Shown here in pieces: positions 963-27,222 of a DNA stretch of 28,978 bases (position 1 is the first letter of the stretch; the number at the start of each line of letters is the position of its first letter). The DNA comes from a virus: positions 5 through 28,982 of the IMG/VR virus record IMGVR_UViG_3300000228_000028. One strand, 5' to 3'. The position numbers and the translations under genes were made by a program. The notes under the pieces were generated by a model that was given only the letters and a program-made list of their open reading frames with translations, did no database searches and was not told where the DNA came from.

Positions 963-3900
963 CCAAGCTAAAACTTCTACACCAACACTTAGTGAGGTGT
1001 AAGAACCAACTTCAGCTTTTACATAGTAAGTACCTCTTGCTGTAACATCAAAAAATAAGTCAGTAGTCTCACCAATCAGTACTGTGCCTTTATATATTTT
1101 AAACACACCCTCAATTAAATTTTCATCTTCACCAGCTACAATAACATCTATGTTTCTGTATCTAGCACCTTTAGCTCTAACTCTTGATTGCCATTGTAAT
1201 CTAAAACCAACTGCCTGTAAATTATCCACAGGATACGGCGTAGCTAACTCTCTTTTAGTATATAGTGTTTGCTCAGTCATGGTGGGAGAAGTAACATATT
1301 GATTAGTACCTCTATACTTTATAACATGATTTAATTCATCAGTCGGTAGAGGTAAATGAAAATCAAACAAATCTATTTTATGAGATACATCTCCTGTGTA
1401 GAGTAACCATAACTTCTTACCTATTGCTTGATTACTTCTTAAATATGTATCCGCTTCACCTAAATTCATAAATAAAGGATATAAAACAAATCTATTTCCG
1501 TCTAAACCTATACGCATACATATTGAAACAGAAAAGAAAAACCCCTCACAATAGCCTATCATTTTACCTCTCTGAGCTTCCTCAGCTGTAAAAAACATAT
1601 CGGATAAAAGCCCATGAATATCTTTTACAATCATATCAGTATAGAATCCTATTTGGTTTTCATAATTGTCAGACTCTCTCCAATCCTCTACAATAGTTTC
1701 TATTGATGTCATATAAGGTGTATAAGGTAAAGTATCTACTTTAGCTTCATAAACTGTTTCATCAGGTATATAATTTTTATTACTTGTTAAAATCATTATA
1801 TTTGGGTCAATAGTTGTATGCTTAGGTGCTAGAGTGTAAGCAAAATTAGGTTGAGTAAAATACACTATGGTACATTCAGCCTCTGAAAAATAAGGGGCTA
1901 AGTATGATTTAATACAATATGTCCCTACATCTTGTACAAACATCGATAAATCATTAGTAGTATTTATTAATTCATTACCATTTCTGAATACTAAAAAGTG
2001 ACCCTCAACAAGTAATTCATCTGTTCCTGCTACAATAGAATCTATATTTTTGTAAATAGCCCCTCTAGCTCTTACCCTAGGAGTCCAAGATAGAGTATTC
2101 CAGAGTGCTTGAAAACCTTGTGGAGGATAGGGTGTAGCTATTAGAGCATTATCATATTGAACCCCTAAGTTTGTTGTAGCTGAATAATCTCTATCATTAA
2201 AAGCATAAGAGTCAATTTGGTGGTCGGTTGTAGAGTCTTTTAATGGTCTTATAAATTCAGAAAATTCATCATGGTATTGGTCTTCTTGTTTGATAAAAAG
2301 CCATAAATCTAAACCTGTTAAGAAAGTCCCTGGTGATAAATGGGAATCTCCTACATCCATAAAAAAATCACTTAACTTATATTGGCTTCCCCCTAAAGAC
2401 TCACAAATACCCACAGAGAAGAAACTACCATTACAATACCCTAAGACTTTGTTTTCTTGTTTTTCTCTATCACTCAACATAAAAGGAATTAATTGTCCTT
2501 TTTCATCATTAACACTAATAGTAGTAGTGTCATCTATTTGTTTACCATATTTACTACCATAGGTCATATTAACAACCTTAGTATAAATAGATTCAGGGAA
2601 CTCAGTAAAAGAGTAATTGTCTGATTTTAATCTGAATCTTGTATTTAAAGGTCTTTCAGTAGTTTGGTAAGTAACAAAAGGTAATACAGATGGTGTATTA
2701 ACCTCACTCCTAGGTGGTATTGCCCACCCCATCTTAGTAACATCTAAAAAAGGGTCAGGCAATGGTGCAGGTGTGGGTGGTTGAAAAAACAGAGGGATTT
2801 GAGGTTGATTCTCCTCTCTATTATATACATCTTCAACAGCTTCCACCTTAAAGTAATCCGATGTTAACTCATCTCCTGAAATAGAAAATACCCTCATAGT
2901 AACATAATATTCTATTTTTATATCAGGTTTAAGATAAATTAAATCACCTATTTGAATAAAAGTGTGTAATACAGGTATATTAAAAGACGCTTTAAGAGAA
3001 TTCTCTGTTCTTATTTTAAGCTCTCTTTGAATAACTGTATCAAGTGCTTCCTGAGTGTTAATCATTTCTAAGTTTATATTATCTGATTTAGTAAATTTAT
3101 GTAATTTAAACAAATCAGTATTTACATAAGTATAATTTGTTTTTTTAGGTCTTTTATCATCATCTAAACCTGTGTAATCAAACACAAAAGTATTATTTAG
3201 TTTCTGTTTAGACAGACTTGTTATTGTTAATTCTTTTGTATTTAAGACACTAAAAGTATTTGTAAAAGTTTTATCCTTAATTTCCTTTCTAAACAAAATC
3301 ATTGAGTATTTTTCGGTCTGTTTATCGAAATTTACAACACCATACACAATTTTACATATGTTAGCTATCATATCTGCGGCTTTTGTAGGCTCATTAATTA
3401 CAAAAGAGACACCTAATTTTTCGGTGTGTAAGATACTTGCACAGTCTTTAAAGGTCTGTAACTCTACATTCTCCATAGGTATGTTTAATAGGTTTGTTAA
3501 AATATCTAATAAAACATAAGCGGGATTATGTACCTCTATTAGAGTGCCATTCATTGTACCAAAAAATGTTTCTTTAGGGTCTGATACATACACTGACCCA
3601 AACACTTTAATAGCCCCTCTTTTTATTAAGAAATGGTACTGAGGTATGCTCTGAACATTATCCCCAATAAAAGTGTCATTAACCATCGCTATGGTAGATG
3701 TACCTACAAAACTGATAGGCAAGGGTAATACTGAATGAATAACACTTGTGTCATTAAGAGGAGAACCATTAAAAAAATATACTAAACTCATATCGGATTG
3801 TGGTGACCCATGTACTTTAGCTTTTTGACCTGTCTTAATAAGGAAACTACCTGTATTACCATTACCTATTTGAGTTTTTAAGTGATACCATTTATTAGCG

Positions 3901-4244
3901 TCATATTCACTTTGCTGTATTTCTGTTATTTTTGGTGATGTATTATCATAATTAGCTTTCCACCACTCACTAAAACCTGTCCCATTAAGTCCCATAGGGG
4001 GGATAGGGTCATTTGGATAAGGGTCTCTATAAAACCTACAAGTACTCTCCCCTGCATTCCCCATCCATACATAACAGCGTTGATATTTATAGTATCGGTA
4101 TTGTCCTGAAACAGGTGGTGCGGATGTGTATGTGTAGGTGTAAACCTTTTCATCATTTAACCATACATGTAACAATAAATCTGATTGTGTGCATAGTGCA
4201 TAAATAAAGTTTGCTGTGTATCTTACACCTACTGTTTGTGACAT
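960..4244 (-). CDS. TipJ-like tail-tip / host-specificity protein, main (C-terminal) part
   Basis: 1094 residues; ATG preceded by AGAAAGGTTTAAG. The N-terminus (GVRYTANFIYALC, residues 6-18, then HVWLNDEKVY) matches the stretch that in TipJ/GTA gp15-type megatron proteins follows the PxxYG...G motif. That missing motif is encoded by the separate small gene 4468-4701 just upstream, so this looks like one protein split in two. The middle holds baseplate-hub-like sequence (about 150-500) and a proline-rich linker (about 485-510). The C-terminal half is an internal duplication: blocks around 533-830 and 836-1094 share GYC.G.FFSV.IC and RVRA+GA.Y+NID.IVAG.DE offset by about 295-300 residues. Expected role: tail-tip assembly and receptor contact. 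Family call is fairly sure, fine function is inferred. Confidence 0.75.
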   Translation of the reverse strand: MSQTVGVRYTANFIYALCTQSDLLLHVWLNDEKVYTYTYTSAPPVSGQYRYYKYQRCYVWMGNAGESTCRFYRDPYPNDPIPPMGLNGTGFSEWWKANYDNTSPKITEIQQSEYDANKWYHLKTQIGNGNTGSFLIKTGQKAKVHGSPQSDMSLVYFFNGSPLNDTSVIHSVLPLPISFVGTSTIAMVNDTFIGDNVQSIPQYHFLIKRGAIKVFGSVYVSDPKETFFGTMNGTLIEVHNPAYVLLDILTNLLNIPMENVELQTFKDCASILHTEKLGVSFVINEPTKAADMIANICKIVYGVVNFDKQTEKYSMILFRKEIKDKTFTNTFSVLNTKELTITSLSKQKLNNTFVFDYTGLDDDKRPKKTNYTYVNTDLFKLHKFTKSDNINLEMINTQEALDTVIQRELKIRTENSLKASFNIPVLHTFIQIGDLIYLKPDIKIEYYVTMRVFSISGDELTSDYFKVEAVEDVYNREENQPQIPLFFQPPTPAPLPDPFLDVTKMGWAIPPRSEVNTPSVLPFVTYQTTERPLNTRFRLKSDNYSFTEFPESIYTKVVNMTYGSKYGKQIDDTTTISVNDEKGQLIPFMLSDREKQENKVLGYCNGSFFSVGICESLGGSQYKLSDFFMDVGDSHLSPGTFLTGLDLWLFIKQEDQYHDEFSEFIRPLKDSTTDHQIDSYAFNDRDYSATTNLGVQYDNALIATPYPPQGFQALWNTLSWTPRVRARGAIYKNIDSIVAGTDELLVEGHFLVFRNGNELINTTNDLSMFVQDVGTYCIKSYLAPYFSEAECTIVYFTQPNFAYTLAPKHTTIDPNIMILTSNKNYIPDETVYEAKVDTLPYTPYMTSIETIVEDWRESDNYENQIGFYTDMIVKDIHGLLSDMFFTAEEAQRGKMIGYCEGFFFSVSICMRIGLDGNRFVLYPLFMNLGEADTYLRSNQAIGKKLWLLYTGDVSHKIDLFDFHLPLPTDELNHVIKYRGTNQYVTSPTMTEQTLYTKRELATPYPVDNLQAVGFRLQWQSRVRAKGARYRNIDVIVAGEDENLIEGVFKIYKGTVLIGETTDLFFDVTARGTYYVKAEVGSYTSLSVGVEVLAW

Positions 4245-4337: not shown

Positions 4338-4496
4338 TCACTCCCAAATATTATTTTATGTTAAACTTTTCAAGATAAGAAACTAAAATATTATAAATAA
4401 AATCATTCCTCAATATTAGTTTGTGTTAAACTCTCTGAGATAAGAAACTAAAATATTATAAATAAAATCATTCCTCAATATTAGTTTGTCTTAAAC
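4338..4496. repeat. 65-bp tandem array, three copies, starting at a stop codon
   Basis: Units begin at 4338, 4403 and 4468, a constant 65-bp period. The last 29 bp of the first two units are identical (GATAAGAAACTAAAATATTA...), while their first part differs at several positions. The third, partial copy (4468 to about 4496) is the stop codon and last codons (RQTNIEE) of the 4468-4701 gene and is almost identical to unit two. Each full unit carries TATAAT on the minus strand. The array fills most of the 223-bp gap between the two parts of the split TipJ gene. Confidence 0.85.
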
Positions 4497-4701
4497 CACC
4501 AAAATAAATAGCATTTCCTGCTACCAACACAGTACCATAAATAACAGGTACAACCCTACTTTCTGAATTGTCGGGTGTTTGAAAATCCTCAGTACCTGAG
4601 GGTGTTGCACCATCTATCTCAGGTATCATTGCTAACATGATGACTGAAACAACTATTGATGTTATAATTGCTACTATTATATATATTACCCAATCGGGCA
4701 T
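4468..4701 (-). CDS. N-terminal fragment of a TipJ-like tail-tip protein
   Basis: 77 residues; start supported by AAAGAGGAGTAAAA. Residues 4-25 form a hydrophobic helix (WVIYIIVAIITSIVVSVIML). Residues 50-70 read VVPVIYGTVLVAGNAIYFGGL, the characteristic (I/V)PxxYGxxxVxGxxI motif found near the N-terminus of TipJ/GTA gp15-type tail-tip proteins. In those proteins it is followed directly by a Y.ANF..ALC...I..IW motif, which here opens the next gene (960-4244). The coding frame ends at TGA, with TAA close behind in the same frame, so simple readthrough would not restore the fusion. It could be a naturally separate subunit or a gene broken by the tandem duplication that begins at its stop codon. 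Membrane localisation is possible, but the hydrophobic N-terminus is also usual in full-length relatives. Confidence 0.65.
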   Translation of the reverse strand: MPDWVIYIIVAIITSIVVSVIMLAMIPEIDGATPSGTEDFQTPDNSESRVVPVIYGTVLVAGNAIYFGGLRQTNIEE

Positions 4702-7569: not shown

Positions 7570-10500
7570 TCAAGCATTGACAATATTTCTAACTATTTTT
7601 CTACCTTCTCTACTTGATAAGTATTGTGCAAATAATTTTGGGTCAACAGAGTTTAATATTACGACCTCACTATTGCTACTAGACTGTTGGCTTTGTGGTG
7701 ATTCCTGAGTATTTTTAATATTATACACATCTTGTCTTGATAAAACATACTCACCTTTTAATAATTTAGCATTTACTTCATCATCCCTTAGATTAGAATC
7801 AGACCCATTACTTACATAACCTCCTGTGTGGTATGTTTGTTGTTTAATTAAAGCAACATTCATCAAACCTGACGCAACAGCCATTGCGGCGTAAACTATA
7901 CCAACAGTAGGATGTATTTCAACGCCAACCTCATAAGCTTTATTCGCTGAATCATAAGTAGCTATTAAAGCTTTTGCCGCACTCATTGCTTGATATGCTT
8001 TAAAAGCTGTTTTGCTTTTTTTACCTGAAGCTTCATAGTATTTCTGTGCTACATCAGCCATCCTACCAAAACCATCTGAAGTGACATCCAATGCAAATTT
8101 AATACTTGCTTGTTGTACTGCCTGTCTTTTACCCTCTTCTAGTTGTGCTATACTTGTTTTAGCTTCCTCAAAAAGTTTATACGATTCTAACATAGTAGCT
8201 CTCTCAGCTTCTGTTTCAAAAGCCCCTGAACCAGCCTGTGAGTTGGAATAAATATCAAAAGATTGTGCTGACTCAAATTTAGTAAAATCAACTCCCTTTT
8301 TAGCACCTATCTCTTTAGAAGCTTCATACTGACCTTGTTTATCATTAATTAAAGGGTCATATTTTTTACCTGAACTTGCGTATATTTGCTCCTCTATTGT
8401 ATCGACACCATTTAATACCAAAGGACTTTGATTCCAAACACTTCTAGGTGTACCTAAATCAATCTTATTTTGTCTGTCCTCTTTTTTTATCTGTTCTTTA
8501 GCTCTAATTAAGGCTTCAAGTTTATTTATATTACCTGATTCTAACTCTAAAAAGCTAAACATCTCTGAATATTTTTCAAACGCTTCTTCTCTCTCTTTTT
8601 TAAACATATCAATAAGCTTACCATTGTTAGTTTGTCTTCGAGTCTCTATTTTAGCAATGGTGTCTTGTATCTTATCATCATACTCAGTAATCTGATTTTC
8701 CAAATCACCTATATTTTTTTCTGACTTGTTAATCTCCTCACTAATTTTTCTTGCTTTTGTATCATCTAAGCTAGAACCACTCAGAGATATTTTTTTACTA
8801 TTTAGTTTGAATAGTTTTGCTTTTTCTTGTGATAATGTATCTTGTAAAGCTTTAGAAAACTCTTTTAATTTATCGATGTAATCAATATCTACATCAGTTT
8901 CAGTTACTTTATTACCAAGTTTTTGTGTAGGACTAATAGAATAAAGTTTTTTATTATCTCCTTCAAGCCTTTTTATCTTAGCTTCTAAAAGTAATTTTTC
9001 CTCTTGTAAAGCTAAAACACCTTTATCTGTGAAAGTATATATATCCTCAAAAGCTAAAAAAGACAAGTCTGATTTTAACTGACCTATCTCTTTCATATTA
9101 TCAGAAATTATATCATAAGATAATGTTCTAATGTTATCATTTATTTGTGTATATACCTGTGGCTGTGAATTATTGTTATCTATATCTTTTAATGCTTTTG
9201 TACCATAACGCTCTATCATAGCTTCTAAAGATTTAACTTTATCACTATATTTACTATTTTTACCACCAACATCATCTAAAATTGTTTTAAAAGTTGTTTT
9301 TAATTCCTCTTTTAATGTTTCAGGAGAAACCTCAACAACTACATCAACATATTTTTTATCTACTGCACCTTTTGTTGTGCTGGTCTCCGTTTTTTTATAC
9401 TGTTGTAAAGATGTAGATAAATTTAATATTGTATCACTTTCTGCTTGAATATCTTTAATATTTTTCTTAACTGTGTCAATTTGGTATTTTAGTGCTTTTC
9501 TACCTTCCTCAGATACTGTATAAAAACCTTCAGATTGTAGTTTTGATAACTCCTCTTGAAGCTCTTTTAGCTCTTTATTATTATTCTCAACCATCCCTTT
9601 TGTCAATGTTTTTAGTTTTTCATTGATTAAATTAAATTTCTCTAATCTTTCATCACCTTTGACTTTTTTGAAACCTTGAACATCTCCTGTTAAAGATTGG
9701 ATATCACTATAATACTCTATGTTAGCCCCTCTATTAAACAATTCATTAAGTACTTTAGTTGAGTTTAATAAAGATTTAGTAGCTTCCTCTACATTGGTCA
9801 ATGAGGTAGTCTTACTAACTCTATCAGGTTGGTTTGTAACTACCTCTTGTCTTACTATTTTAGTCACTGCTGGTACGGTTGTAGTTACAACTTGGTCATA
9901 TCTTAATTTTGTCTCTTTAGGTGTTATAGAGCTTTTTAATGTATTAATACTATCATTTAAACCTTTTATTGAATTAGCTTTATCACTATTATAAGCTTCT
10001 AAATCTCCTTTTTTATTTGAATAGTATGGATTCATATCAAAAGTTTTATTTGTTTCTAAAGAAGTTACAAACCTATCTCTATTTTTTTCATAGTACTTTA
10101 AGGTTGCTTTTTGTTCTTTTAATAAAGCTTCAGCACTAGACACTTTTTCTTTAGCAAAAATATCCATGACCTTTTGACGCTCTTCATTAATGTCTGAAAA
10201 AGCCTTGTCTTTTGCTGTTATAGCTTTTGAAACCCTCAATAAAACTTGTTGAATAGCCTCTAAGGGTTCATCACTTGATTTTTCAGAGAGAAGTTCAGAT
10301 TTTACCTCATTAGACTTTTTGGAATTTAAAATACTAATATACTCTTTTATTCTTTTTTTGGTTTCAGCGTCTGCATTGCTATCCTTAGCAACATAATCTA
10401 AATTTCCTTTTTCATCGTTTATATATTTATTATATAATTTACTAATTTCATCTTGGTTCTCTTTAGCTGTTTTCTTGTCATCTATTTTCCATTTACTCAA

Positions 10501-13500
10501 CTCTTTACTAAGAGCTTCAGCACTAGCCTGAGATTTAGAATTTAGTTTTATCTCTAATTTTTCTTCAGGTGTTTGTATGTTTGCTTTTTGTGTTTGGGTA
10601 AGCCCTGTTCTACTTTCTGTAACTCTAAAAGGGTTATCCCATTTAGTATTTGGTGAGGTAGCTAACATAGGGTTAGTTATCATAAGCATTTTCTGATTCC
10701 CTGCAGTATTAGCATAATCAGGTACACTTCTTTCAGAGTATCCATTCCTACTCGATGATACATCTGACACACCTTTATCAGTTCTCATTATAACATGCTT
10801 TGACCCATCTTTAGAACCCATATAAATCAACGAACCCTCAGGTGCATTTATTATATCCATTTGAGAGTTCCTCATAGTACCCCCACTGCTACCATAGTCT
10901 TTAAGCACATACCCGTCTCTTCTTGCTACCGCCATTTGTTGAGCAGTAGTACCCCCAATATTGAGATGTTTTATAGCCTCCGCATAAACTGTTTGGGTAA
11001 ATGCACTACAATCGGCTCTATTCCCATCACTTTGATTAGTATTATTAAAGTTATACCTTTGTCTTGAATCATGAGCATACCCCCCAACTCTAGTACCAAC
11101 AGCTCTGCAAACATTTGACATATTACCACTTTTATCTAAGTTTAATTCAGCTATTGTTGTAGGTCTTGCTTTACTTTGTGTAGGGGCGTCCACCTTATAC
11201 CCAACCATTCTTAAAAAAGCAGTAACAGTATCATAAAAACCACTTCTTGCTTGGTCTTTTCTAGTACCCCTCTCATTAGGGTTTCTTAAGATACCTCCAT
11301 ACTCTCTTAAATCTGCTTTTAGTTTACCTACTTTAGCTATTTCTGCTGTTATTTTAGGGTCTTTTAAGGTATGGTTCAAGTCTATTAATGAAGCAGAATA
11401 TTTATTTAACCCTTCTATCAAAATATCCTGTGATTTTGCTGATGTACCGTTTCGAATACCTTTTGCTGTTCTTATCTCTAATGCTCTTTCAACCGCTTTA
11501 ACCATCCCATCTGCGGCAATACTTGATGAGTGTCTTGGGTTAGCTTTATTTACCTCACTTGCTTGATACACCTTACCAATAGGGGTTTCTAAAGCCCTTT
11601 TATTTTCTCCTAGATACTTAAGGTAGCCTAATATACCACCCACCACAGCACCACCTGCCATACCTGCCCAACCCCCTACTGAACCACCAACAGCACCTAC
11701 TCCTGCACCTTTTAATACATCACCAATATCACCACCAGCTGAACCTAAAAGTAATTTTTTTCTATTATAACTATCCATTAGTTCATTTAGTTTGTTGAGA
11801 GCTACTTGAAAAGCGTCTGTGACACTATGAGCCATATCTAAAGATAGACTTTTAATATTATTTACAAAACGCTCCCATGCTTTTTGGGTATTGTCAACTG
11901 CTATTTCTGATTTTTTAAGCTCATCTCTTACACCTTCTGATGTTTTTTTAAGGTGTTTTGATATTCTGTCATAATTATTTCTTAAACTATCAAAGACTTG
12001 TTTATCCAAAACTTGTAAATCCCTTATTAACCTACCATAGTCTTCTTTTGATAAGGAATTAAGTTTTTTTATAAAAGACTCCATAGCTTCTTCAGACTCT
12101 TTACCACCTTTTTTCATTTGGTTTGCTAAAAGTTGTTGATTCACACCTAATTCAATAAATACTTTATTTATTGAAGCTTTACTTTCCCCAAGTATTTGAG
12201 CAAATCTTCTAACATTTGTACCAACTGTACTGACCTGCTGACCCGCATTCCTAAAAGCTATGTAAAGAGACGCAACAGCGTTTTCGGTTAGCCCCGCCGA
12301 TAAAGAAGCTTCAAGTGCGTAAGATGAGAAAGTAGCAATGTCATGTGCTGTACCTCTTGATTCATTTGCCATATACGCTAGTATATCACCCAAATGCTCT
12401 ATTTCTTCAGCTGACTTACCAAGAATCCCCTCAGTATTACCATAAGTCTCCTTCCAAACAATAATAGCGTCTGCGGCGTTCTGAAAAGTATCCCCTGTTA
12501 GTGTAGCAAGTTGTAATGATATTTCAGTAGCTTGTTCTAAATCCTTTGTATCAATACCACCCCTAGCAAGTGATATAGCAGTCTCATCAATATCTTTTGT
12601 TAAACCCCCATAAACAGTCCCTAAGTGCATTAACTTAGTTTCTAATATCTCAAATTCTGCTCTATTTTGTGCAATAGATTTTGTACTATCCCCTAAAACG
12701 GCTGTCATCATTGAAACAGTATTGTCAAATTGGATACCTACTACTAAAAACCCAGCAGTAGCTATTGTTAAAGCCCCCATAGCTGTAGCCAATCCCATGA
12801 ATATCATCTGAGACTGTGCTAACCTGCTTACTTTTGAACCAAAAGATTGTTCTTCAAGTTTACCCCTAGCTTCTTGAAACTTTAAGTTAGCTTCCCTATA
12901 TTTTTCAGTATCTTTATCCAAGTTTTGGTTAGCCTTATTTTGTGAAAGCAAATTAATATCACTACTTGCAAAATCATTTCTCTGTTGCTTGATATTCGCT
13001 AACTCTATTTGTAGGTTCTTTTGTCTCTCTCTAGCGTCATTTATAGCCTTTGAAGACGCATAGTTCAAGTTTTTATTTATATTTAAATCATAAGAAGTAA
13101 TAAGTTGCTCATACTTATAAATCATATTGTCGAACTCTTTAGTAGTTTTTTCTTGGGCTAATAAAGTTTGTTTTAGCTCATTCACAGCTTCAGTACCTGT
13201 ATATCTTGTACCTAAATCCGTATCTCTTGTACCAATATCATCAACTATTTTATTGCGTCTCTCTCTTAGAGAAGCTCCCTCTTCGAAGTCATAATTTTTA
13301 ATAGTTGTGTCTATATCCTGAATATCACTAATATCTTTTAACTTTCTTTCTATTAACTTAGCTTTTGTAACTACTACCCCTACATTATCTGCACTACCTG
13401 AAAATACATCTTTAATACTTATGTTTAATGTGTCAAAAGCTTTGAGAAGTTTTTTCTGTTCTGGGCTTCCTTTTCTATTTACATGCCCCACAACACCACC

Positions 13501-16116
13501 ATCAGATAAATCTAGTACTTCCTCAGGCTTTAAACCCATAAGAACACCATTTAAAAAACGCTCTTTGAGTTCTTTAGATTTGTTCTCTATGTTTATTTTA
13601 GAGATATTATCTTTTTTAAAGTCTGTCTCATTTTTTTGTACCTCTGAAATCTGTTGACCAATATTTTTTAAAGTAGTATCGTCATAACCCTGTCGTTTAA
13701 AACTTGTTAAAACATCTGTGTAATGCTTATTTCCGTTGGCAAAATCTGTGTGAGCAGTATTTACAGCTTTTCTAGCCCCTTTTAAGTATTTATCAAAAGA
13801 GTCTATCATTTCTTGTAACTCACTTATTCTTGTAGCAGACAAGCTCTTTTTGAAGCCATCAAAAGCAACTTCTTGTGTTGTAAGCTTTTTACTAAAATTA
13901 CTTATATATTTTTTTGTATTCTCGGTTTCTATATTTTTATCTATATTTTTAGGTGTCAAAACATTATCTATTGTGTGAAGAAGAGACTCTCTATATTCTG
14001 TTAAAGTAGCTAACGGGTTGCCAACCCCATAAACTCTCTCTATATCAGGTACACTACGCAAAAAATCATTATTTGTGCTATTATTTATTCGTTGAGTTAG
14101 CATTAGTTTATGCTTTTCTAGGGTAAAAACACCTTCTTGGTACATCTTGGAGGTTCTAAAATTACTATCCAACACCCCTATTGAAGTGAACTGTTCTAAT
14201 ATTTTATCTGTTTCGTTAAGCTCTCTTCTAGTATGTTTAAGCACTTCATTCACTCTAATACCAAAAGCTCTCCTTTTTTGAATATGTATAGAGTTTTCTT
14301 TTATAGTATTTCTACCAGCGATAGGTCTTACTGTTTGTATATCGGATTCTGACTTTGCACCTCTATTATTTATATCAGAATTAGACATTAAAGTATTCTC
14401 ATCAACTATTGCTTGTTTCATACCCTCAAAATCAATACCACCTAGCTCTTTTGGTAATGGATTGAGCATTTGTGTTTTGTCTAAAAAGGCTATATACTTA
14501 TTATTAGTATTCCTTTGAGCATTATGTAATATTTCAGTATTTCTTATCTTTTGTTTAAATTCTTTAGAAGCCCTGAAAATACTATCTTTGTACCTTTTTT
14601 CATTTTTAATAACTTCCTGTTTTAGCTTATTGTACTCTGAAGTAACTTTACTTTTATTAGTACCGTCAATAGAGAATTTTTCTAAATCTTTTACACTTTT
14701 TTCAAAATCTGATTTACTTTTATCTATATCAGGTGATTCAACCACATCAAATGAAGCCCCTAAAGTCTCGTAAGCACCTTCTAAAAGCAACCCTCTTTTT
14801 TCAGATAATCTAGCAAAAGTGTCTAACCTACTTTTGCTATCCATAGCTTTCTTTTTAGCTGTTCTTATAAAAGTATCACTATGCTCCGACTTTACATCCG
14901 TCTTAATATTATCAATCTCATTATAATCACTTGTAGCAGATATCCTTTTAATTATACCTTGTTTATTCTCTATTTCCACATCAAAAGTGTCCATTATTCG
15001 TTTAATGTTCTCATCATCACTCCCAAGGCTTATATAAGTACTATTTAATTTACCTTTAACAGATTGGAGTGTTTTTATACTCTTATTAAGTTCGGCAGTT
15101 TTTCTATTTCTAGCTCTTTCAACTTCAGTAAAAGACATTTCTGATTGTATTTTAGCATTTTTTAAGTTACTTCTAGCTGATTCAGTTTCAGAGTCTATCA
15201 TATTTAAATAAGATTCTGTACTACTAAAATCTTTAATATCTAAATTTTTTAGGTTATCAATACTTTGTCTTAAATTATTTCTTGAACTATTAACATTGTC
15301 TGAATTTGCTGACCCAACTTGTGCATTTAAAGACTCAGACATACCCTCTAATAGTTTAATTCTTTCTTTATGTCTATTATTAACCTGTTTCTCTAATGCT
15401 CTATCATTTTTTACAGCTTCTGCGTACGCTCTAGTCAATTCCTTAGAGTCACTTACATTATTTGTATTTGGGTCTAGTAATTGTGCTTGTGTAGCCTTAA
15501 TAAACATCTCTTTTTCGTTTGAAAAATCTTTTCTTGCGTATTGTAAAGGTGTCATCTTGTCTAATTTAGTTGCATTATCTACAAATGTACTTAATTTTTT
15601 ATTTAATTGATTTATCCTTACATGGTTACCTGTTGTATTTATTTCATCCTCAATTATTTTATCCAACCCAAGTATATTAAGACCTTTTGCTTTATCTTTA
15701 ATATTTTTTTTAACACCTTCTAAAGTACCATAGAATCTGTTAGTAGCACCTTTTAAGTCCTCACTAGCTATCTTTGTAGAAGCCCCTAAAGCAAGAGCTT
15801 CATTAAATAAACTTTTAGGTGCAGTAGTGACTTTGTTTTTTCTTAGTTGAGTCACTTCAGCTTCTAATTCCTTAACTTTAGCATTTGTTGCGGAGTGTTT
15901 TCTAGGCGTATCTTGATATATATCATAATCTTGTTTAGACATAGCTACATTTGTTTTTTCAATGGCTGTCTTAAGAGCTATTTGTTGAGATAGTAGTTTA
16001 TCATTTTCAGTTATTACGGTTGAAAGGAGTTTACTCAAGGATTGTAAATCATTCTCCACTTCTCCTGTGTTTGGAGCTACCTCTAATATTATTTTTTGTT
16101 TATCTATAATAGGCAT
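7570..16116 (-). CDS. Tape measure protein with internal NlpC/P60 peptidase domain
   Basis: 2848 residues; start supported by GTAAGGGGTTTTT before the ATG. The first ~1080 residues are highly charged and helical (coiled coil). A TP901-type tape measure core follows (about 1100-1420: hydrophobic MGLATAMGALTIATAGFLVVG, then FDNTVSMMTAVLGD and ARGGIDTKDL). A glycine-rich hydrophobic segment lies at about 1455-1510. An NlpC/P60-like domain (about 1660-1815) has the catalytic-type Cys1703 in ADCSAFTQTVY and His1774 in SKHVIMRTD; I could not place the third residue. More coiled coil follows, and the C-terminus has the usual ending TGGYV...LRDDEVNAKLLKGEYVLSRQ. It sets tail length; the peptidase domain probably opens cell-wall peptide cross-links at DNA entry. 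At about 0.15 nm per residue the tail would be roughly 430 nm, far longer than lambda's. Confidence 0.93.
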   Translation of the reverse strand: MPIIDKQKIILEVAPNTGEVENDLQSLSKLLSTVITENDKLLSQQIALKTAIEKTNVAMSKQDYDIYQDTPRKHSATNAKVKELEAEVTQLRKNKVTTAPKSLFNEALALGASTKIASEDLKGATNRFYGTLEGVKKNIKDKAKGLNILGLDKIIEDEINTTGNHVRINQLNKKLSTFVDNATKLDKMTPLQYARKDFSNEKEMFIKATQAQLLDPNTNNVSDSKELTRAYAEAVKNDRALEKQVNNRHKERIKLLEGMSESLNAQVGSANSDNVNSSRNNLRQSIDNLKNLDIKDFSSTESYLNMIDSETESARSNLKNAKIQSEMSFTEVERARNRKTAELNKSIKTLQSVKGKLNSTYISLGSDDENIKRIMDTFDVEIENKQGIIKRISATSDYNEIDNIKTDVKSEHSDTFIRTAKKKAMDSKSRLDTFARLSEKRGLLLEGAYETLGASFDVVESPDIDKSKSDFEKSVKDLEKFSIDGTNKSKVTSEYNKLKQEVIKNEKRYKDSIFRASKEFKQKIRNTEILHNAQRNTNNKYIAFLDKTQMLNPLPKELGGIDFEGMKQAIVDENTLMSNSDINNRGAKSESDIQTVRPIAGRNTIKENSIHIQKRRAFGIRVNEVLKHTRRELNETDKILEQFTSIGVLDSNFRTSKMYQEGVFTLEKHKLMLTQRINNSTNNDFLRSVPDIERVYGVGNPLATLTEYRESLLHTIDNVLTPKNIDKNIETENTKKYISNFSKKLTTQEVAFDGFKKSLSATRISELQEMIDSFDKYLKGARKAVNTAHTDFANGNKHYTDVLTSFKRQGYDDTTLKNIGQQISEVQKNETDFKKDNISKINIENKSKELKERFLNGVLMGLKPEEVLDLSDGGVVGHVNRKGSPEQKKLLKAFDTLNISIKDVFSGSADNVGVVVTKAKLIERKLKDISDIQDIDTTIKNYDFEEGASLRERRNKIVDDIGTRDTDLGTRYTGTEAVNELKQTLLAQEKTTKEFDNMIYKYEQLITSYDLNINKNLNYASSKAINDARERQKNLQIELANIKQQRNDFASSDINLLSQNKANQNLDKDTEKYREANLKFQEARGKLEEQSFGSKVSRLAQSQMIFMGLATAMGALTIATAGFLVVGIQFDNTVSMMTAVLGDSTKSIAQNRAEFEILETKLMHLGTVYGGLTKDIDETAISLARGGIDTKDLEQATEISLQLATLTGDTFQNAADAIIVWKETYGNTEGILGKSAEEIEHLGDILAYMANESRGTAHDIATFSSYALEASLSAGLTENAVASLYIAFRNAGQQVSTVGTNVRRFAQILGESKASINKVFIELGVNQQLLANQMKKGGKESEEAMESFIKKLNSLSKEDYGRLIRDLQVLDKQVFDSLRNNYDRISKHLKKTSEGVRDELKKSEIAVDNTQKAWERFVNNIKSLSLDMAHSVTDAFQVALNKLNELMDSYNRKKLLLGSAGGDIGDVLKGAGVGAVGGSVGGWAGMAGGAVVGGILGYLKYLGENKRALETPIGKVYQASEVNKANPRHSSSIAADGMVKAVERALEIRTAKGIRNGTSAKSQDILIEGLNKYSASLIDLNHTLKDPKITAEIAKVGKLKADLREYGGILRNPNERGTRKDQARSGFYDTVTAFLRMVGYKVDAPTQSKARPTTIAELNLDKSGNMSNVCRAVGTRVGGYAHDSRQRYNFNNTNQSDGNRADCSAFTQTVYAEAIKHLNIGGTTAQQMAVARRDGYVLKDYGSSGGTMRNSQMDIINAPEGSLIYMGSKDGSKHVIMRTDKGVSDVSSSRNGYSERSVPDYANTAGNQKMLMITNPMLATSPNTKWDNPFRVTESRTGLTQTQKANIQTPEEKLEIKLNSKSQASAEALSKELSKWKIDDKKTAKENQDEISKLYNKYINDEKGNLDYVAKDSNADAETKKRIKEYISILNSKKSNEVKSELLSEKSSDEPLEAIQQVLLRVSKAITAKDKAFSDINEERQKVMDIFAKEKVSSAEALLKEQKATLKYYEKNRDRFVTSLETNKTFDMNPYYSNKKGDLEAYNSDKANSIKGLNDSINTLKSSITPKETKLRYDQVVTTTVPAVTKIVRQEVVTNQPDRVSKTTSLTNVEEATKSLLNSTKVLNELFNRGANIEYYSDIQSLTGDVQGFKKVKGDERLEKFNLINEKLKTLTKGMVENNNKELKELQEELSKLQSEGFYTVSEEGRKALKYQIDTVKKNIKDIQAESDTILNLSTSLQQYKKTETSTTKGAVDKKYVDVVVEVSPETLKEELKTTFKTILDDVGGKNSKYSDKVKSLEAMIERYGTKALKDIDNNNSQPQVYTQINDNIRTLSYDIISDNMKEIGQLKSDLSFLAFEDIYTFTDKGVLALQEEKLLLEAKIKRLEGDNKKLYSISPTQKLGNKVTETDVDIDYIDKLKEFSKALQDTLSQEKAKLFKLNSKKISLSGSSLDDTKARKISEEINKSEKNIGDLENQITEYDDKIQDTIAKIETRRQTNNGKLIDMFKKEREEAFEKYSEMFSFLELESGNINKLEALIRAKEQIKKEDRQNKIDLGTPRSVWNQSPLVLNGVDTIEEQIYASSGKKYDPLINDKQGQYEASKEIGAKKGVDFTKFESAQSFDIYSNSQAGSGAFETEAERATMLESYKLFEEAKTSIAQLEEGKRQAVQQASIKFALDVTSDGFGRMADVAQKYYEASGKKSKTAFKAYQAMSAAKALIATYDSANKAYEVGVEIHPTVGIVYAAMAVASGLMNVALIKQQTYHTGGYVSNGSDSNLRDDEVNAKLLKGEYVLSRQDVYNIKNTQESPQSQQSSSNSEVVILNSVDPKLFAQYLSSREGRKIVRNIVNA

Positions 16117-16137: not shown

Positions 16138-16151
16138 TAAAAATCGTAATC
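16138..16151 (-). promoter_or_regulatory. CGATTT motif upstream of the tape measure gene
   Basis: Minus strand GATTACGATTTTTATA; central CG at 16146-16145, 29 bases before the ATG. It lies 41 bp from, and faces away from, the copy serving the divergent chaperone genes. Confidence 0.5.
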
Positions 16152-16180: not shown

Positions 16181-16194
16181 CAAAACGATTTTAA
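16181..16194 (+). promoter_or_regulatory. CGATTT motif upstream of the inverted chaperone genes
   Basis: Plus strand CAAAACGATTTTAA; central CG at 16186-16187, 37 bases before the ATG at 16224, followed by AGTATAAAA. It is the only upstream copy seen in plus orientation and serves the only plus-strand genes, which supports the view that orientation matters. Confidence 0.55.
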
Positions 16195-16223: not shown

Positions 16224-16670
16224 ATGGCAATAAAAAGAGAAAAAATAGATGTTATAAAATACATACCTAATTTAGAGAGAGGTGAGGACAAGCCTTTCAC
16301 AGTAACTCTAAAAAGATTAACGACTATTGAAATAGCTAGACTAGAAGACGCACTAACAACTTATAACCAAGAGAGCAAAGATATTAAAAGTAGCGTTGCA
16401 ATGTTTAATATAAACCTATGTAAAAGTGGTATCATAGGGTGGGAAAATGTACTTGATGAGAATGATGTAAGTGTTAAACTACTATTTAATAGTGATGATA
16501 ATCTTGTTACAGATAGTTGTATTGATGATATAAGAACATATATAGATGAGATAGCAGGGGTAGTTTCAACAATCTCTAAAAAACCTAGGTTTATTAATGA
16601 ATATGTTAAAGAGTATGATTTTACTATGGAAACATTAGCAAAAGCTAGAGAAGCAATAAAAGAAGAATAG
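16224..16670 (+). CDS. Putative tail assembly chaperone, first gene (gpG-like), on the opposite strand
   Basis: 148 residues, acidic, helical, no membrane segment. Start ATG follows AAGGTAAGCTACAA. It contains SGIIGWENVLDEND...VKLLFNSD (about 67-91), the GW.NV.D..G..V.F pattern common in siphophage tail assembly chaperones that bind the tape measure protein. It sits exactly between the tail tube and tape measure genes, the standard place for the gpG/gpGT pair, but is transcribed the other way. I see no convincing slippery sequence joining it to the next gene: the overlap open in the other frame is only 16660-16674, and the second gene has its own AGGAAT site. The chaperone call rests on position plus this weak pattern. 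Confidence 0.6.
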   Translation: MAIKREKIDVIKYIPNLERGEDKPFTVTLKRLTTIEIARLEDALTTYNQESKDIKSSVAMFNINLCKSGIIGWENVLDENDVSVKLLFNSDDNLVTDSCIDDIRTYIDEIAGVVSTISKKPRFINEYVKEYDFTMETLAKAREAIKEE

Positions 16671-16674
16671 GAAT

Positions 16675-17268
16675 ATGTTAGCCCCTATACCTCAACATAA
16701 GATATATAGAGGGGTTGCATATACTTATAAACCTCTTACTTTATTACAAGTCATGGAAGTGGATAAACTCCACATAGACAAAAGGTTCAATGAGTTTTTA
16801 CAAAGAATAATTGATTTAACTTTTGAAGAAGTCCCTAATGAGATACCTTATGAAGATTTATTTAACATAGCTCAGGGTATATACATTGAATCTACAAATA
16901 TAGAACTAGAGTCTATTGAAAGGTATGTTAATATATCTTTATCTGACACAATGAAAAATTATAATTGCGAATCATGTAAAAGAAAAAAGTTAGATGTAAT
17001 AAGAAATTGTGCATACCTTAAGGATGGGTCAGGAGATAAAAACTTCTCTATACAAATAGATAGAGATGTATATACTCAATGTCCTAAATCTTTAATAAAT
17101 TTTGAGAGAGTAAATATAGCTTTTGAGGCTTATGAGATATTTAAAAAAGGGTTTTTACCTGTTGGTGGTGGTTGGTTTGACCAAACAATGCACTTTTGTG
17201 TATATGCGTCAACAATAGATAGGATAGTTAAACAAAAAGAGTATGAAGCTCTTAAAAAGGCTCATTAA
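16675..17268 (+). CDS. Putative tail assembly chaperone, second gene, with a four-cysteine cluster
   Basis: 197 residues; begins 4 bases after the stop of the first chaperone gene, with AGGAAT before the ATG, so translation is probably coupled. Cys98, Cys101, Cys112 and Cys136 (CxxC-x10-C-x23-C) could bind zinc. The C-terminal part reads NIAFEAYEIFKKGFLPVGGGWFDQ (about 147-170), like the F..Y..F+.G.LP..GG..DQ ending seen in tail assembly proteins of Mu-like and GTA-like siphophages. It would act with the first gene in loading tube subunits round the tape measure. It converges on the tail tube gene, with 76 bases between the two stop codons. The family call is moderate. Confidence 0.55.
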   Translation: MLAPIPQHKIYRGVAYTYKPLTLLQVMEVDKLHIDKRFNEFLQRIIDLTFEEVPNEIPYEDLFNIAQGIYIESTNIELESIERYVNISLSDTMKNYNCESCKRKKLDVIRNCAYLKDGSGDKNFSIQIDRDVYTQCPKSLINFERVNIAFEAYEIFKKGFLPVGGGWFDQTMHFCVYASTIDRIVKQKEYEALKKAH

Positions 17269-17310: not shown

Positions 17311-17328
17311 CACCCTATAAATAGGGTG
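17311..17328. terminator. Hairpin between convergent genes
   Basis: CACCCTAT-AA-ATAGGGTG, a perfect 8-bp stem with a 2-base centre, lies between the convergent stops of the chaperone and tail tube genes. It has no T-run on either side, so it may be a weak terminator or an RNA 3'-end stabiliser rather than a classical intrinsic terminator. Confidence 0.4.
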
Positions 17329-17341
17329 AACAAGGCTACAA

Positions 17342-17355
17342 GTGCTACATAGCAC
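17342..17355. terminator. Second hairpin overlapping the tail tube stop codon
   Basis: GTGCTA-CA-TAGCAC, a 6-bp stem that includes the TAG stop of the tail tube gene and lies 13 bases from the previous hairpin. A role in ending convergent transcripts is inferred from place. Confidence 0.3.
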
Positions 17356-18364
17356 CTATAAGAATAGGGTCAATCTCACTAGAGGCGTTTACCTCAAACT
17401 CAACTGAATTTTCTAACAGTCCATCTGCATTTTCAATACTAACTGCTGAATATCTAAATTTAGGGATATAAATCGCAAATTTATGTGTTCCATTAGCTAA
17501 TTCAAGGTATAAACTGCCATCTGTACTATTTTTAAATTTATTCAGTTCTGAAAAGTCATCAAATATGGTTTTAAAAGTACCTTTAATCATTTTTTTAGTG
17601 ATTATTTTAGCACTTACACCCGCTGATGTTATAGCTTCTCTATCTACAACAGTATTTTCTATTGACAAAGTAACATCTTTAGCCTCTTTAGAAGCACCAT
17701 CAATTATAAATTTACCACTTCTACCTACATAAGGTGTACTTGCTATAACAGTATTGACCAAAAGAGTCTCACCTGTTGCTGATGTAAATCCACTTGCACC
17801 TGCGTCAATAGAGATAGTACAAATATCATTAGTTGGGAAATTAAACTTAGCCGAAGTAGGTACAACTCCTGTGTAATTTAATGTTCTACTATCACCTGTT
17901 GAACAACCATACATTTCTTTAATAGCCAATGAAGCCTGACTACCACAAACTTGATTTAGTTTATATAGAACTCCTGTTCCTGTCTCACCAGAAGCGGCTT
18001 GGTAAATCATACTTGCTGAAGTTGTACCGGCGTCAGAGTACCCAATAAAACACCCTGTCCCTAGTCCCTCAGGTTCTCTTACCCCTACACAAACTTCTAA
18101 AAGGTCAGCACCATTTATATCTTTACTAGCACCACCTAAAGGTATTAATTCCATCCCAATAGTACCTGAAGCTGTCTCTTTAGTAGGTATCTTAGCTTTT
18201 GACAAGAAACTTTGAGCAGTTACTTTTGATTCTACCGAAGCTATTTCAGGTTTCATATTTGTGTCTTCTGTTATTTCAATACAATCAGCGTTAGCAAAAA
18301 CACCTCCTGTATTAAAAGTTACCTCTTTAATAACAGCTACTACTTTTCCACTTATTCTATACAT
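17345..18364 (-). CDS. Major tail (tube) protein
   Basis: 339 residues with no membrane segment; rich in Gly, Ser, Thr and short beta-like stretches, as expected of a tube subunit. The start is supported by AAAAGGATGTACTA before the ATG. It follows the tail-terminator gene and precedes the chaperone/tape measure region, the canonical place of the major tail protein. The C-terminus (KFRYSAVSIENADGLLENSVEFEVNAS) resembles the closing strand region of phage tail tube proteins. Four cysteines at about residues 139-182 are unusual for such a protein but form no motif I can name. It should polymerise into the tail tube along the long tape measure. The call rests on order, size and composition. Confidence 0.72.
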   Translation of the reverse strand: MYRISGKVVAVIKEVTFNTGGVFANADCIEITEDTNMKPEIASVESKVTAQSFLSKAKIPTKETASGTIGMELIPLGGASKDINGADLLEVCVGVREPEGLGTGCFIGYSDAGTTSASMIYQAASGETGTGVLYKLNQVCGSQASLAIKEMYGCSTGDSRTLNYTGVVPTSAKFNFPTNDICTISIDAGASGFTSATGETLLVNTVIASTPYVGRSGKFIIDGASKEAKDVTLSIENTVVDREAITSAGVSAKIITKKMIKGTFKTIFDDFSELNKFKNSTDGSLYLELANGTHKFAIYIPKFRYSAVSIENADGLLENSVEFEVNASSEIDPILIGAM

Positions 18365-18381: not shown

Positions 18382-18395
18382 TAAAAATCGTATTT
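18382..18395 (-). promoter_or_regulatory. CGATTT motif upstream of the tail tube gene
   Basis: Minus strand AAATACGATTTTTAAT; central CG at 18390-18389, only 25 bases before the ATG. Little room remains for a separate -10 box between it and the ribosome binding site. Confidence 0.5.
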
Positions 18396-23496: not shown

Positions 23497-23510
23497 TAAA
23501 AATCGAATTT
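23497..23510 (-). promoter_or_regulatory. CGATTT motif upstream of the portal gene, proximal copy
   Basis: Minus strand AGAAATTCGATTTTTAAC; central CG at 23505-23504, 24 bases before the ATG and directly adjoining the ribosome binding site. Confidence 0.45.
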
Positions 23511-23520
23511 CTATTAATCA

Positions 23521-23534
23521 ATAAAATCGTATTT
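23521..23534 (-). promoter_or_regulatory. CGATTT motif upstream of the portal gene, distal copy
   Basis: Minus strand CAAAATACGATTTTATTG; central CG at 23529-23528, 48 bases before the ATG, 24 bases from the proximal copy. Confidence 0.5.
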
Positions 23535-25857: not shown

Positions 25858-27222
25858 TTAAGTAGAAAACATTATAATTTGTGTCATATTAATTCTATGG
25901 GCTGTTGCAACACAATATCTTAATGAACCAATAGCAATATCAAAGTGGGAGAACCTTTTATTTCTTTCAACCTCGCCTGTTTTTTTATTTTTCCAAGCCA
26001 TTGATTTAACCTGTGCAATAGTTTCTACACAATCCTTACTAATTATCAATTTATCCTGCGAAAAAAGGTCATTTATTGTGTCAGTACCTTCAAAAATCTT
26101 ATTAAACGCAGGAGATGACTCATAACTATACTCATAAGATAAATCCGTCATAGCTTGAATGGCACTAGGGTCTGAGAACCTTGATAAATTAGAACCAACA
26201 CTAAATTTATGCTCTAATTCAATAAAACCTTTAGCATGAGAGGACAAAGGGAGTCTATTTCCAATATATTCTCCTAATATGTAATATATTCCGTAAAACT
26301 TGTCAAAGTAACATAGTGTAGCACATGTAGAGTCATTAAAACCAAAATCTAACCCTATATAAAAAATACCATCACTAGAATATTTTATATCTTTAAAATC
26401 AATAGTGTGTTTATTTATATCAAAGTTAAAATAAACAATATTTGTTGAGTTTTTACTCCAAATACCTAAATATTCCTGTGAGAATACTCGAGGGGGCAAT
26501 TCTAATTCTTTTTGTCTAAGAAATTCTTTAGAAATATATGGATTTTTATGTGTTGGGTGGTTTATACTTTTATAACCATTAATACCTAGCTCACCTCTTT
26601 CATAAAACTCGTACCAATCATTATCCTCATCTCTAGCTGTACCTATTAGTAAAGTTTTACTATAAAAATACCCATCATCCGTAACACCGTAATCAGCCTG
26701 AGCTGGTTGTATTTTATTTTCTATTATATCTACAATACCTCCTATATCTTGGGTCTCATCACATATTACAAGACTAAATCTTTGACCTAGTACATTAACT
26801 ATTGATTTAGATGTGGCGGATACAAACCGTTGACCCCCCTCCACAGTAAAACTAAGGTTTTGAGAAGATTGTGATATAATTTTTAAACCTAAGTTCTGAA
26901 TCTTCAATAAAACCATGTCAAAGATAGCTTTAGCATTACTAAAAGTAGGTGTTACAAGCAATACTTGTGAGTAAGGGATTAATAATTCACATATTACTAA
27001 CCTAGATACAAAAAGGGACTTACCATATCTTCTCCCATTTGTAATAGAAAATATATTAAACTCACCTTGTTGAATTATATCTAATAACTCCAACTGACCC
27101 TCATGAGGTTCAAACTCTAAAGCTTTCATAGCAAGTAAATAATTTACCCTACCTTTAAATTGTTGGTAAAGTTGTATTTCATTGTTTGGTGCTTCTTTTT
27201 TACCATTTTTTAAAGCATTCAT
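25858..27222 (-). CDS. terL: Terminase large subunit
   Basis: 454 residues; AAAAAAGGGAAAAA precedes the ATG. ATPase domain: Walker A-type NGRRYGKS (62-69; the usual first Gly is replaced), Walker B LVICDE (151-156) with catalytic Glu156, and coupling motif LLIGTA (191-196). Nuclease domain (RNase H-like): Asp292 in GLDFGFND, Asp351 in SDPSA, Asp428 in HFDIAIGSL, the three metal-binding acids. It cuts concatemeric phage DNA and drives it into the prohead through the portal. It follows the small terminase gene after a 171-bp gap. Assignment is secure. Confidence 0.95.
   Translation of the reverse strand: MNALKNGKKEAPNNEIQLYQQFKGRVNYLLAMKALEFEPHEGQLELLDIIQQGEFNIFSITNGRRYGKSLFVSRLVICELLIPYSQVLLVTPTFSNAKAIFDMVLLKIQNLGLKIISQSSQNLSFTVEGGQRFVSATSKSIVNVLGQRFSLVICDETQDIGGIVDIIENKIQPAQADYGVTDDGYFYSKTLLIGTARDEDNDWYEFYERGELGINGYKSINHPTHKNPYISKEFLRQKELELPPRVFSQEYLGIWSKNSTNIVYFNFDINKHTIDFKDIKYSSDGIFYIGLDFGFNDSTCATLCYFDKFYGIYYILGEYIGNRLPLSSHAKGFIELEHKFSVGSNLSRFSDPSAIQAMTDLSYEYSYESSPAFNKIFEGTDTINDLFSQDKLIISKDCVETIAQVKSMAWKNKKTGEVERNKRFSHFDIAIGSLRYCVATAHRINMTQIIMFST

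Follow-up and report, generated by a model that had tools for sequence, protein, structure and literature searches.

The ratio of the tail assembly chaperone forms G and GT is normally fixed by frameshift efficiency. This G:GT ratio, about 30:1 in phage lambda, has been called crucial to the assembly of tails (PMC5009743). The locus described here raises the question of how this balance could be set when the two genes at the chaperone position face away from the tape measure gene: do they encode chaperones, how did they come to lie inverted, and how would the second product be made? We analyzed a viral DNA stretch of 28,978 nucleotides, referred to as the window, which covers almost the whole of a linear virus record (28,982 bases). 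The initial annotation had placed a gene pair at the chaperone position on the plus strand, and two open reading frames, termed P1 (148 aa) and P2 (197 aa) and separated by 4 nt, are indeed found there, flanked by the tail tube gene and the tape measure gene of the minus strand. The features of the locus are as follows.

7570–16116, minus strand: tape measure protein gene, 2848 aa, matching PF10145 (PhageMin_Tail, 1e-21) and containing an NlpC/P60-like domain (PF00877).
16140–16147, minus strand: promoter-like motif ACGATTTT of the tape measure gene, whose CGATTTT, at 16146, precedes the start by 30 nt; the related contig L002 has it too.
16185–16192, plus strand: promoter-like motif ACGATTTT of the putative chaperone pair, 38–39 nt before P1, with CGATTTT at 16186.
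16224–16670, plus strand: P1, predicted gpG-type tail assembly chaperone (short form), homologous to the G ORF of nine phages.
16675–17268, plus strand: P2, predicted stand-alone GT-like chaperone, with an amino terminus resembling G, a carboxy terminus resembling T, and its ATG 4 nt past the P1 stop.
16675–16950, plus strand: G-like (duplicated) domain of P2, from hhalign against the G family and blastp to the G protein of phage P24.
16951–17265, plus strand: T domain of P2, with four cysteines (Cys4, predicted zinc site) and an L..GG..DQ motif, from the invariant residues of an alignment.
17311–17328, no strand assigned: hairpin CACCCTA-TAAA-TAGGGTG between the convergent 3' ends, without a U-tract.
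17345–18364, minus strand: tail tube gene, matching PF18906 (Phage_tube_2, 7e-16), convergent with P1 and P2, with its own motif at 18384–18391.

The minus strand carries the head–tail module, comprising terminase, portal, protease, capsid, connector, tube, tape measure and tail tip genes. The earlier statement that the rest of the window is encoded on this strand holds for every other ORF of plausible gene size, as the remaining plus-strand ORFs are small and overlap minus-strand genes, and the pair converges on the tube gene as had been described. P1 and P2 are not chance ORFs, since frames of at least 148 aa occurred in 0 of 2000 random sequences of matched dinucleotide make-up; their GC3 bias matches that of the other genes. 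The tape measure protein, whose NlpC/P60-like domain spans residues 1686–1782 (PF00877, 5.7e-5), is with 2848 aa longer than the largest tape measure ORF among co-directional relatives (up to 2329 aa).

We next consider the identity of the two proteins. Neither P1 nor P2 has a curated family match in Pfam or NCBIfam, P1 gave a weak XkdN-like match against PHROG (0.011), and direct tblastn searches of both proteins against named phages yielded no matches. The link to named phages was reached via three intermediates (L003, L005, L006), in which the tube gene is followed by a P1-like ORF1, an ORF2 resembling the carboxy terminus of P2 and then the tape measure gene, all in the same direction. Independently of profiles, tblastn connected P1 to L003 (6e-5) and P2 to L005 (5e-10). 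ORF2 (T) of L005 in turn matches Rhodobacter phage loci annotated as tail assembly chaperone beside the tape measure gene, a depositor annotation found at this place in several Rhodobacter phages, including RcZahn and RcTiptonus. P1 is homologous to the G ORF of nine phages with canonical G/T pairs (L003, L005, L006, the Rhodobacter phages RcZahn and RcTiptonus, Alteromonas P24, Rhizobium RHph_I4, Agrobacterium JP1 and Microcystis Mae-JY22), and in all nine the pair is co-directional and located between tube and tape measure. HMM comparison resulted in E-values of 6e-42 for P1/G and 1e-36 for P2/T, using profiles that include the window proteins. Based on alignment and HMM, the last ~100 residues of P2 match the T domain, and the residues invariant in the alignment of 11 T domains (C, C, C, C, L, G and Q) are all retained in P2. 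The chaperone identity, earlier guessed from position, is thus backed by homology to the frameshifting G/T pairs of nine phages, and we assign P1 and P2 with high confidence, on these sequence grounds, as tail assembly chaperones encoded by an inverted pair. The T domain with its Cys4 and GG..DQ residues provides a sequence handle on chaperone genes missed by current family libraries.

A second chaperone candidate was considered and rejected: a 77-aa gene at 4468–4701 (minus strand) matches phrog_1180, named tail assembly chaperone, but matches the amino terminus of the long tail protein phrog_1101 equally well. As it also lacks a Pfam match, its product is more likely a fragment detached from the tail tip protein, and the label of phrog_1180 may be misleading.

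The initial annotation had treated the two genes as a plain chaperone pair; the homology upholds their identity, but P2 is not a plain T partner, as a G-like domain precedes its T domain. Profile–profile comparison (hhalign) of 17 P2 amino termini with 27 G sequences aligned the first ~95 residues of P2 collinearly with the G family at a probability of 96.3% (E 1.7e-9), whereas 100 column-shuffled controls reached at most 1.8% and the tube and T profiles remained below 1%. In addition, blastp matched the amino-terminal domain of P2 to G of Alteromonas phage P24 (E 4e-5). Only the family profiles resolved this relationship, the single-sequence HMM score of the window P2 amino terminus against G being not convincingly above that of shuffles. 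By these comparisons, P2 is a second G-like domain joined to a T domain, that is, a predicted ready-made GT-like protein. In lambda, the G part binds the tape measure protein and the T part the tube protein (PMC5009743); carrying these roles over, P2 would join a tape-measure-binding to a tube-binding domain. Structure models of P1 and P2 were of moderate quality (pLDDT 73 and 77), and Foldseek returned no fold matches at E < 1e-3 for either. The top PDB match of the P1 model was YqbN (3KLU; weak, E 0.7) and the second PDB match of the P2 model the HK97 chaperone (2OB9; weak, E 2.4), while the top BFVD match of P2 was a tail assembly chaperone with several more listed, all at weak E-values.

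To place the inversion among relatives, we compared the window with an independently assembled 18.4-kb contig (L002; L004 is the same contig), which contains the same inverted pair with the same neighbours. P1 and P2 share 86% and 88% amino acid identity between the two, with a DNA identity of about 75–86%. The dN/dS values of 0.078 (P1) and 0.086 (P2) resemble those of tube and portal; both genes are under purifying selection. A tube-profile scan, with repeats of known contigs set aside, yielded 16 further contigs of the family, some of them near-identical to each other, and in 15 of the 15 that carry both genes, G and P2 run in the same direction as tube and tape measure. The inverted arrangement, sought in related phages, was therefore recovered in L002 but not in these 15 other family members. 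In the tube tree, the window and L002 group together at 100/100, apart from the co-directional members. Given co-directional genes in the 15 relatives and in the outgroup phages, the simplest history would be one inversion in the ancestor of the window and L002, and as judged from the relatives found, the inversion is derived and confined to this clade. P1 and P2 thereby depart from co-directionality with the tape measure gene, which is an observed regularity and not a strict definition of chaperones. The order tube, P2 end, P2 start, P1 end, P1 start, tape measure has the geometry of a simple two-gene inversion. An invertible cassette was also considered and dismissed, as no long inverted repeats flank 16224–17268. 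Scans of genome contigs revealed no prophage relatives, and literature searches, whose coverage excluded most subscription journals, found no report of an inverted chaperone pair.

Other segments of these genomes also vary in orientation. The large terminase gene (25858–27222 in the window) points the same way as the head genes in the window and in L039, L042 and L046, but lies on the opposite strand in L030, L032–L034, L040 and L044, indicating that segment inversion recurs in the family. In L003, a high-GC phage contig, a small zinc-ribbon-like ORF (3649–4053, minus strand) lies on the opposite strand between the chaperone and tape measure genes, suggesting that this gap accepts inverted inserts elsewhere.

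The pair had further been described as possessing its own motif, divergent from that of the tape measure gene, and this motif stands up statistically and points the same way as its gene. CGATTTT occurs 11 times in the window compared to 2.2 expected, and lies at most 80 nt before 7 genes compared to 0.1 expected, with a maximum of 2 in 300 Markov simulations. The only plus-strand copy of the extended motif ACGATWWT in the window is the one before P1, and its orientation matches the gene in both the window and L002. The motifs are located 25–50 nt before the starts, where a −10-type element would be, and those of P1 and the tape measure gene diverge about 40 nt apart in the window. In relatives, ACGATWWT precedes portal, tube and tape measure and is found on the other strand before divergent terminase-side genes, indicating that it follows gene orientation; in L022, L024, L025 and L026 it is flipped before a neighbouring minus-strand gene. 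The portal gene is preceded by two copies ~21–24 nt apart (window 23499–23529; L002 16035–16063; also in L032 and L040).

The family displays different placements of this element around the pair. In L029, L030, L032–L034, L040 and L044 a related ACGAT-type motif precedes the tape measure gene, and G, without a motif of its own, is separated from tube by a strong hairpin. L036, L037 and L042 carry the motif before G and none before tape measure, and the inverted clade has motifs before both the chaperone pair and the tape measure gene. The motif resembles the −10 box CGATwt of Campylobacter sigma-28 (PMC3847290), and a sigma-70 consensus scan revealed no excess of sites near the pair. The motif is likely a promoter. 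The hairpin at 17311–17328 could possibly act as a bidirectional transcription barrier; a consensus scan detected no terminator, and L002 contains larger hairpins in the corresponding gap.

Two rival explanations question the pair itself. The plus-strand genes could be an unrelated inserted cassette of moron, defence or regulatory genes that lies at the chaperone position by chance; their opposite strand, their own promoter-like motif and the lack of a curated family match are indeed typical of morons. Both genes, however, have canonical G and T ORFs as homologues, arranged in the same order and at the corresponding position, in co-directional relatives, and the tube/tape measure gap holds no other gene, rendering a cassette very improbable. 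An assembly artefact, conceivable for a virus contig that may be incomplete, we regard as the most far-fetched of the explanations, because the inversion and its neighbours recur in the independent contig L002, at about 75–86% DNA identity, and the motif before P1 turns with its gene in both.

A further rival accepts the chaperones but holds that programmed frameshifting links P1 to P2 as usual, the separate P2 start being an annotation choice. At the opening of the T frame, 8 of the 9 canonical phages have a slippery A6–7 followed by C or G, and Rhizobium RHph_I4 has GGGAAAC at its G/T junction; these heptamers are of the −1 slippery type, and by their sequences the nine are textbook G/GT arrangements. 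RcZahn (L007, 3498–3520) contains GAGGAAAAAAACTC, and the −1 frame from there into the T ORF is open; no clear frameshift evidence was reported for its chaperone genes (PMC8601537). In the window the open frame of P2 extends 11 nt back into the end of P1, and among 15 co-directional relatives (L029–L046) there are 13 whose P2 is shifted by +1 against G, often overlapping and in L030, L034 and L042 without an ATG, so that a non-canonical frameshift, for which these +1 relatives share no conserved slippery site, might still operate there. Within the inverted clade the frame relation differs: P2 is at +1 in the window but at −1 in L002 (the co-directional L032 and L040 have 0). No canonical slippery heptamer was found at the P1 end, which makes programmed frameshifting an unlikely source of P2 in this clade; P1 and P2 thus do not display this widespread, though not universal, feature of G/GT chaperones. 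Frameshifting would also not be needed for a GT-like protein, as P2 already joins a G-like and a T domain, and its ATG and MLAPIPQHK start are conserved in both inverted phages. We consider this rival improbable, if less so than the other two. Against the reading preferred below, neither inverted phage has a well-spaced Shine–Dalgarno sequence for P2: the distance to the ATG is only 2 nt in the window, and in L002 it is large. Three relatives inspected (L016, L025, L026) have no good one by the G stop, which would fit weak coupled initiation.

Taken together, we consider it very probable that P1 and P2 are inverted chaperones with their own promoter-like motif, P2 being a constitutive GT-like form made without frameshifting; the best reading is that the two genes came to form a transcription unit of their own, oriented against their neighbours. 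P1 would be the abundant gpG-like form coating the tape measure protein, and P2 the constitutive gpGT-like form, whose diverged duplicate G domain would bind tape measure or co-assemble and whose Cys4 T domain would recruit the tube protein. The motif would serve as a late promoter, setting how much chaperone is made compared with tape measure and tube. The P2:P1 ratio would be determined by translation, through coupled initiation 4–5 nt past the P1 stop, rather than by −1 frameshifting, and the hairpin would separate the convergent 3' ends. The balance of the two helpers is thus probably set differently from textbook phages, and the earlier proposal that the inversion changes chaperone dose for the long tape measure is plausible. 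With somewhat better than even confidence we further propose for the family that G-domain duplication replaced the almost universal G/GT frameshift and freed stoichiometry from decoding, upon which one clade flipped the pair into an autonomous late unit that faces the other tail genes, with chaperone:tape measure:tube ratios set by separate promoters.

Compared to known systems, the window pair shares with its lambda gpG/gpGT-type homologues, such as RcZahn genes 27/28, the position between tube and tape measure, a G-type ORF, the Cys4/GG..DQ T domain and sequence homology. Unlike these, it is inverted, lacks a conserved frameshift, has its own promoter-like motif and carries the T domain on a stand-alone protein with a G-like domain of its own. 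Phage T4 offers a different likeness. Its genes 26 and 51, which we take to be the T4 chaperones, encode paralogues (blastp 2e-6); gene 26 lies on the opposite strand to genes 51-27-28-29, where 29 is the tape measure gene, and the palindromic TATTTATAAATA lies between genes 26 and 51. Chaperones of T4-like phages are reportedly made by a mechanism other than frameshifting, to judge from the title of a 2022 study by Vladimirov and colleagues (Virology 566:9). T4 is thus probably a partial precedent for a chaperone gene that points away from the tape measure gene and does without a frameshift. P1 and P2 have no significant sequence match to gp26 or gp51, and T4 has a contractile tail and a pair split over two strands, whereas in the window both genes lie on one strand, opposite to everything else. 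A third comparison is with the co-directional family members L029–L046, which resemble the window in their G and G'T proteins, head/tail module, and capsid and portal homologues, with a tube identity of 47–59%, and differ in that the pair is co-directional with tube and tape measure. New in the window is the inversion of an entire pair within a siphophage-type module, in combination with a GT protein that has a duplicated domain and is related to canonical frameshifting G/T genes. A ready-made GT-like protein under three promoter arrangements, including an inversion, amounts to a natural experiment on whether tails need the G:GT ratio, the coupling to decoding, or merely both forms.
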